The notes beneath the pieces were generated by a model. The model was not told the origin of the DNA. It saw only the letters and a program-made list of their open reading frames with translations, and did no database searches. This document shows positions 438-3,400 of a DNA stretch of 64,000 nucleotides, in pieces. Made by a program: the position numbers and the translations under genes. The stretch is from positions 6,592,160 to 6,656,159 of the forward strand of contig NC_061062.1 of the NCBI RefSeq assembly GCF_021917145.1. Direction: 5' to 3'. Positions within the stretch are counted from its first letter, which is position 1. Each line of letters starts with the position of its first letter. Origin of the DNA: Hypomesus transpacificus. Lineage: Eukaryota > Chordata > Actinopteri > Osmeriformes > Osmeridae.

Positions 438-3400
438 ATTCTCTTGGTGTGAAAGGCAGCTTCTTGCTCCTGACCTTCACAGGAGCTTGTTTGATTCTGC
501 ACTTCCCTGGAGGGGCTCTCCTGTGGGGGCAGTAGGGTGGGGAAGCAACAGACAACCAGGTCACATTCAGTAATACAAGACTGCGGTTAAGTGAAAATAA
601 AATAACACAATGAATCCCAAAAATAAGTTTACAACAGTAAGTATCCATCAGTAAGTCAAGGTTTAGTCAGTTGCACTTTCTGCCAGCTGAGTGGTGATGG
701 TGAAACCTTCAACAGATTAAGACTTTAGCATCTGCTTATTAAATAAATTACATAATATCATGAACAGTACAGGTTGTTGGCTGCAATTAGTATCTAGTGC
801 TATATCCACACCTAAAGCCATGTGCAGTAGAATACAGTATATTCTATTCAGTCTATTCATAGTTTTATATATTCAGAATATCTATCTGGAGTATACATTC
901 AGAGTATATATTCAAAGTAGTATATATTCAGAGTATTATATATTCAGAGTATCTATTAATACATGTTCAGAATATCTATTCAGAATATTATTTGTTAGAG
1001 TATCTATTCAGAATGTTATAGCAGAGAAGTAGAAAGTAGTACTTATTCAGAGTATTATCTATTCACAGTGTTATATGTACTAGATAGAATAGAATAAACT
1101 GGTTATATATTCAGCGTAGTATACTCAGAGTGTACATTCATGTGTGTGCAGCTGTGGCCAGTATGCCACTCCAGATGGTCTTTATAAGGTTTCTCCTCTT
1201 CTAGAGTTGCTTAGAAGAGGAGGGGGGCTCAGCTCTGGGACGTTCTGGGACGACCAGGTGAGCCCTGTCTGTCAGTGTTTCAGGGTAAGAGGACGACATC
1301 ACCAAGGTCAAACTGTAAGAGTTCATTAGCGAGGAGAAACAAAAACACCTTGCACGGGTGTTTCTCAGATCTGAAGTCAAGTTCTTATGGGTGTTTTCTA
1401 CTCATACCTTTAGTTTATACCTACTAATACCTAATGGTTTACGCTGGGAACTCCCACATTGTGTGAAAAATGACAACAACAGACTAAATAACAACTTTCT
1501 TTCAATATGCTCAACTTGAACTAAATGGTCAATCCTAATCCTGGGGTTATCCACCCTGCATCCCTTCAAAGTACAGTAGTTAAAATCCCACATGCCTTGG
1601 AATTGGCAACGATTCCAAAAGGGACGGAAAGAATGTCGAACATCTGATAGCTTCTAATGATTCCATCAGTCCAGGAGTATGTGAACCTACCGTGTCAACT
1701 GGCGTGAAGTCATTTCTGACACGTGTGCAGATATTGAGTTACACGAGAGGCATCTTTTCTTTCTATCATCCATCAAGACAGATTCCAACAGCAGCTATGA
1801 ACAGAGATCAATACGCAGGTTTGATCAGCTGAAGGACATTAAACGGTTTCAGAGCATCTTTGAATCATATCTCAACAATCCATCCCACATCCACATAATC
1901 CACATAACTACTGTCACCTAAGAACTAGTCATCATCATGAGGATTCGGTTCTACCCATGTGATCTTAAAAGACTGAGAAAATATCAAAAGAGCTGAAGAA
2001 CGTTCATCTTAACGTCTCCCACAACCTCAACCTTGGCATCGACAACCAGCAATCCTTTCCAGTAGCGGGTCACCTATACACTGCCTATATACGGGTAGAC
2101 AGTATACTGTACCTTGAAGGATCCATGAACTTGTAAACCGTTCCATAGGGGGACATGGCGCTGGGGTATGAGGTAGCTAGGAAGTACAGTTCACCTGAAG
2201 ATGCAGGAACAAAGAGCAGAGCAGCATAATGAGGTGATCAGCAGGAGACAGCAGAGAGAGCAGAGCAGTACAGCAGGCATTTCACTGCATCCCCCCCCCC
2301 CCCAGGCAGACAGACAGACAGACAAGCAGGAAAACAGGCAGGCAGGCAGGCAGGCAGGCAGAAAGACATACAACGGCTAACCTGCTTCATCTTCAGCGAA
2401 GGAGATGATGAACTTGTGATGGTGATTTATGAGTCCTGGGAAAGAGCATGTCTTTGTGTCTCCCATGCACACGCTCCTCTCCTTCCAGTCCCCGGTGGTC
2501 CTGTCTCCTTCCAGTCCCCGGTGGTCCTGTCTTCTTCCAGTCCCCGGTGGTCCTGTCTCCTTCCAGTCCCCGGTGGTCCTGTCTCCTTCCAGTCCCCGGT
2601 GGTCCTGTCTTCTTCCAGTCCCCGGTGGTCCTGTCTCCTTCCAGTCCCCGGTGGTCCTGTCTTCTTCCAGTCCCCGGTGGTCCTGTCTTCTTCCAGTCCC
2701 CGGTGGTCCTGTCTCCTTCCAGTCCCCGGTGGTCCTGTCTCCTTCCAGTCCCCGGTGGTCCTGTCTTCTTCCAGTCCCCGGTGGTCCTGTCTCCTTCCAG
2801 TCCCCGGTGGTCCTGTCTTCTTCCAGTCCCCGGTGGTCCTGTCTCCTTCCAGTCCCCGGTGGTCCTGTCTTCTTCCAGTCCCCGGTGGTCCTGTCTTCTT
2901 CCAGTCCCCGGTGGTCCTGTCTCCTTCCAGTCCCCGGTGGTCCTGTCTTCTTCCAGTCCCCGGTGGTCCTGTCTCCTTCCAGTCCCCGGTGGTCCTGTCT
3001 TCTTCCAGTCCCCGGTGGTCCTGTCTTCTTCCAGTCCCCGGTGGTCCTGTCTCCTTCCAGTCCCCGGTGGTCCTGTCTCCTTCCAGTCCCCGGTGGTCCT
3101 GTCTCCTTCCAGTCCCCGGTGGTCCTGTCTTCTTCCAGTCCCCGGTGGTCCTGTCTCCTTCCAGTCCCCGGTGGTCCTGTCTTCTTCCAGTCCCCGGTGG
3201 TCCTGTCTTCTTCCAGTCCCCGGTGGTCCTGTCTCCTTCCAGTCCCCGGTGGTCCTGTCTCCTTCCAGTCCCCGGTGGTCCTGTCTTCTTCCAGGGCCAT
3301 TATCCTTCTAAATGATCAAAGAACAACCAGTGCGGTTTAAGCTAATGTTCACCTGTAAGTGAAGAAGCCCCTGAATGTACAATAGTGCTAACAGAGACCA

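Follow-up and report, generated by a model that had tools for sequence, protein, structure and literature searches.

A 26-bp coding minisatellite of 31 units in exon 6 of hhipl2 in Hypomesus transpacificus

Among the internally repetitious coding sequences discussed by Ohno, a repeat unit whose length is not a multiple of three (hereafter, non-3n) and that is open in every frame reportedly cannot terminate itself by frameshift. The repeat described here, in exon 6 of hhipl2, is likewise non-3n and open in all frames, whereas the exon around it is ordinary sequence, so that its frame class matters downstream. Coding repeats with non-3n units are already known from Nematostella vectensis, where 806 instances (18%) are counted among tandem-repeat proteins (PMC2805694), and hhipl2 is a further case. 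In both, the unit is read through three registers and the protein period in residues equals the unit length in bases. However, the Nematostella proteins come mostly from prediction tools, whereas the hhipl2 repeat lies within a single exon of a propeller gene that is conserved in vertebrates and has array-free paralogs in the same genome.

Two other systems are comparable. Like mammalian exonic VNTRs (PMC12776774, PMC1273636), the hhipl2 array is a coding tandem repeat that is likely to vary in copy number, although the functional mammalian examples hold 3n units (PMC12776774) and the hhipl2 unit measures 26 bp; the figure of 13.9% given for human coding tandem-repeat polymorphisms (PMC1273636) can be set against this 26-bp unit. 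Fish antifreeze glycoprotein genes also contain a repetitive coding segment amplified from short DNA, in that case with involvement of a trypsinogen gene (PMC12776774), but those repeats have a known selected function. No published hhipl2 repeat was found among the matches listed in a search of openly licensed papers. A 2025 review states that formal tests of the absence of frameshifts in exonic VNTR expansion against a neutral expectation are lacking (PMC12776774). The hhipl2 array is a clean test case for such frame selection: its unit is non-3n, the paralogs probably preserve the empty state, a likely seed can be named, each unit contains one marker site, and one third of copy-number classes are coding. 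Population copy number modulo three at this locus would read frame selection directly.

Gene model, gene identity, and anatomy of the array

The window, i.e., the whole stretch of 64,000 nt that was analyzed, comprises positions 6,592,160 to 6,656,159 (forward strand) of NC_061062.1 in the H. transpacificus assembly GCF_021917145.1 (C3:6592160-6656159 in the 437 Mb, 376-contig genome that was searched). The hhipl2 gene lies on its minus strand, with eight exons from 7909 down to 438 that have GT-AG sites and consistent phases, and that together form 903 stop-free codons when joined.

7547..7909, minus strand: exon 1, beginning at the first ATG of the open frame
6318..6970, minus strand: exon 2, from GT-AG sites and phases
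5773..5916, minus strand: exon 3, from GT-AG sites and phases
5153..5484, minus strand: exon 4, from GT-AG sites and phases
4242..4368, minus strand: exon 5, from GT-AG sites and phases
2382..3307, minus strand: exon 6, 926 nt (146 nt minus the 30 extra units), from GT-AG sites, phases, and the 146-nt exons of paralogs
2113..2194, minus strand: exon 7, from GT-AG sites and phases
438..520, minus strand: exon 8, its end at 438 set by the donor GTAAGT

Immediately outside the window, exon 8 is followed by an AG that resembles an acceptor and by an open frame rich in Lys (L005); this tail was assigned to hhipl2 from position and frame, not from a transcript. Intron 2 carries a 21-bp minisatellite at 6078-6277 that begins about 40 bp past the exon 2 donor.

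The protein with a single repeat unit (one-copy protein) was compared with Pfam, where it matched PF07995 (GSDH, E 4.7e-33) and PF03024 (Folate_rec, E 2.5e-10), and with solved HHIP chains, along which it aligned as an HHIP-like propeller (E 1.4e-63). A GSDH profile search of the genome returned at least four matches: the window gene, a second locus on C3 (L001), and two loci on C15 (L002, L004) that lie 4.5 kb apart and are taken as one gene. The tail of the L001 gene (L006) contains an SRCR domain (Pfam, E 2e-32) and that of the C15 gene (L007) is SRCR-like as judged by eye, whereas the Lys-rich tail of the window gene matches no Pfam family at E 0.01, and hence no C-terminal SRCR. We take a C-terminal SRCR domain to be the mark of HHIPL1 that is absent from HHIPL2; therefore, the L001 and C15 genes are HHIPL1-type and the window gene is HHIPL2. 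HHIPL1 appears to be duplicated in this genome, with one HHIPL1-type gene on C3 (L001/L006) and another on C15 (L002/L007). In a study on human HHIPL2, HHIPL1 is described as secreted (PMC12848035); we assume secretion for H. transpacificus HHIPL2.

Exon 6 is bounded by an acceptor (..catttag/AAGG) and a donor (GCAG/gttagc), its reading frame is continuous with exons 5 and 7, and most of its length is a tandem array.

2486..3291, minus strand: minisatellite of 31 x 26 bp, GAAG[A/G]AGACAGGACCACCGGGGACTG, one copy taken as ancestral (TRF and unit mapping)

TRF called this array at 2478-3294 with 31.4 copies and a score of 1529, the top of 81 rows in the window. Its 31 units stand head to tail with all 30 spacings equal to 26 bp, and they are invariant at 25 of 26 positions, the sole variable site being A in 15 units and G in 16. 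Setting aside the presumed ancestral unit leaves 30 extra units, or 780 bp and 260 inserted codons, and joining the flanks around a single unit yields an exon of 146 nt. Tandem units of at least 10 bp in an open frame of a coding exon define a coding minisatellite, and hhipl2 exon 6 contains one. The encoded repeat has a period of 26 residues and passes through the three registers in turn (E[E/G]DRTTGDW, K[K/E]...); its 268 whole codons include no Cys and no N-glycosylation motif, and have a net charge of 0. The insertion point falls between two HHIP-conserved stretches, where the one-copy sequence aligns gap-free with solved HHIP.

These results agree with the preliminary description of this DNA, which had proposed a repeat insert in exon 6 between conserved stretches (here the 3291-2486 array within a GT-AG exon model), composed of 30 extra 26-bp copies that sum to 780 bp, a multiple of three (31 units including the ancestral one). 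Its statement that the phases around the exon are kept was borne out by the in-frame joining of exons 5 and 7 and the stop-free exons 1-8, and its placement of the insert in the beta-propeller region by an insertion point inside the stretch that aligns to solved HHIP structures.

A genome-wide search for the unit (≤2 mismatches) placed 31 of 31 matches inside this array, whereas the reversed pattern, used as a control, matched once. With zero matches beyond the array, the idea that the unit is a mobile or dispersed repeat is not supported. No second haplotype with a different copy number was found in the assembly, although a one-copy allele would match the unit pattern once. A Pfam match of exon 6 to MdcG_N (E 3.2e-10, zero qualifying stretches) was taken as a composition artefact.

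Paralog exons, likely seed repeats, and the probable origin of the array

Exon 6 of both HHIPL1-type paralogs is exactly 146 nt long, the one-copy length of hhipl2 exon 6, with which it aligns gap-free (93/146 and 91/146 nt, and 28/48 and 29/48 residues shared). In both paralogs the array is absent, as is a seed repeat at the aligned positions. The claim that the array derives from the exon itself is upheld by these array-free exons and by the confinement of all 31 genome-wide unit matches to this locus. In the one-copy exon, the longest direct repeat with ≤1 mismatch is a pair of 11-bp segments spaced 26 bp apart, which we regard as the likely seed.

3284..3294, minus strand: left 11-bp seed direct repeat, CTGGAAGAAGA
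2478..2488, minus strand: right 11-bp seed direct repeat, CTGGAAGGAGA, running into a partial 32nd unit (unit mapping and repeat search)

The single mismatch between the two seeds is the only variable column of the array, and the two seed alleles are identical to its A and G. Based on this coincidence, the diversity of the array probably dates from its birth, i.e., the A/G difference existed when the array formed. The G-type units combine the G of the right seed with the next C of the left seed, as a junction within the shared AGA would predict. A seed of this kind is not rare: 11 bp at ≤1 mismatch arose at any spacing in 0.156 of 500 Markov simulations, and an exact 7-mer direct repeat in 0.662 of 500.

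We consider it likely that the array is a young, locus-private coding minisatellite, born in hhipl2 exon 6 by slippage or unequal exchange at the seed repeats. The ancestral exon 6 would have been 146 nt long and would have contained the imperfect 11-bp pair CTGGAAGAAGA and CTGGAAGGAGA at a spacing of 26 bp, and slippage or unequal exchange between these two repeats may have produced the first duplication of the 26-bp unit. Later in-register exchanges would then have raised the number to 31 copies, mixing the founding A and G alleles without further mutation. As 31 is of the class 3n+1, the resulting allele would be in frame, and the protein would gain about 260 residues, rich in Gly, Thr, Arg, and Asp and probably disordered, which would separate two conserved stretches within the beta-propeller domain. 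Slippage fits the strong folding of two-unit single strands: 60-nt A-type, G-type, and complement ssDNAs (composed sequences, not excerpts) outfolded most shuffles (z -2.61, -2.27, and -2.17, respectively). The A/G map contains no significant repeated segment (longest 9 units, p 0.18; first-order Markov control 0.50). It alternates more than shuffled maps (22 runs, p 0.036 uncorrected), the sole hint of multi-unit steps; for three-unit periodicity, agreement at lag 3 was 16/28.

The earlier suggestion of a recent expansion fits the 25 invariant positions of the 26-bp unit, although an older array that was later homogenised would look identical to a young one. The array allows 2418 different single changes, 585 of them synonymous, yet none is present outside the A/G site. 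These unused synonymous changes point to youth or homogenisation, not protein selection, as the source of the homogeneity.

Reading frame and alternative explanations

To compare the array with others in this genome, we used the window plus 19 random 10-kb stretches on contigs C1-C20 except C5 (one with 2893 N). This set contains 47 arrays with at least 5 copies and a period of at least 10, of which 26 have non-3n units. When the hhipl2 array is counted, 22 of these 26 have three open frames on at least one strand, and nine have all six open. The hhipl2 unit itself lacks stops in every one of the six frames; among shuffled units, the fraction with three open sense frames is 0.58. The insert is indeed fully open, as first described; however, because the unit is open in six frames and openness is common in non-3n arrays, this is weak evidence. 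With a prior of 1/3 for an in-frame copy number by chance, the preliminary argument that openness together with a 3n+1 copy number signals a tolerated protein was not supported.

Among the copy numbers tried, 29-33, the 3n class stops 90 nt past the array and the 3n+2 class 56 nt past it, in both cases inside exon 6 and 5' of further introns. Decay of the message is expected when a stop lies upstream of further introns. A 50-nt rule for such decay is given in PMC1273636.

In our reading the array is not a new domain under selection but a VNTR, neutral to mildly harmful and presumably varying in copy number among individuals, of which this assembly happens to carry an in-frame allele. It is unlikely that selection instead holds the array at 3n+1 as a maintained protein segment, with the 26-residue repeat made and tolerated, or even useful, in HHIPL2. 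In its favor, the frame is kept and the neighboring exons are open. The sense strand of the array contains zero GT, which rules out splicing from a donor within it, and its 31 purine-rich GAAG[A/G]AGA motifs, which presumably resemble splicing enhancers, could keep exon 6 in the message. Harmless skipping of the 926-nt exon 6 is also ruled out, since its length leaves a remainder of 2 with or without the insert and skipping itself would cause a frameshift. Against maintenance stand the in-frame prior of 1/3, the 22 of 26 non-3n arrays that are open anyway, and the lack of synonymous divergence that would mark age under constraint. The A/G site shows no bias by register: it is 5A/5G where synonymous, and 6A/5G and 4A/6G where nonsynonymous (p = 0.79, with little power at 31 units). 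Thus, the A/G split of these 31 units contains no sign of protein-level selection in the form of a synonymous bias.

An effective loss of function, with hhipl2 under relaxed constraint or decaying in this species and its propeller destroyed by the array in any frame, seems quite improbable. It would be favored by the size and position of the insert (about 260 residues, flanked on either side by conserved parts of a folded domain), and by the statement of a review that exonic VNTRs with non-3n units that shift the frame typically impair coding potential (PMC12776774). However, exons 1-8 retain GT-AG sites and are free of stops and frameshifts, with an open terminal frame beyond.

We give little credence to a germline frame switch, in which gain or loss of 26 bp would toggle between full-length, repeat-bearing HHIPL2 (3n+1) and alleles truncated ≤90 nt past the array, with purine-rich units aiding exon inclusion; such a switch would be akin to slippage-toggled bacterial contingency genes. 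That the copy number is an assembly or consensus artefact is very improbable: near-perfect repeats are where assemblers go wrong, but all 31 units are exactly 26 bp, the A/G map has no significant repeated segment, unlike a looped assembly graph, and 806 bp can be spanned by long reads, if these were used, although the exact number of copies may still be wrong.

Other arrays in the window and the sampled genome

What stands out about the hhipl2 array is its homogeneity: only two of the 47 arrays, this one and another of 8 copies, combine at least 8 copies with at least 97% matches. Minisatellites are about 2.4 times denser in the 64-kb window (21) than in the sampled stretches (8.8 per 64 kb; 26 in 190 kb). 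Another open-frame array in the window (31717-31888, plus strand) weakens the view that coding minisatellites are unusual. This second array consists of a 42-bp unit x 4.1 with 100% matches and reads GAGEAQAGAFQGDM, forming 14-residue units behind the RING domain of a TRC8_N/RNF145-like gene (the name RNF145-like is our presumption). Its unit includes CAGGTGAG, a donor-like site. Ranking second by TRF score within the window (1522) is a 24-bp x 36 array at 62693-63558.
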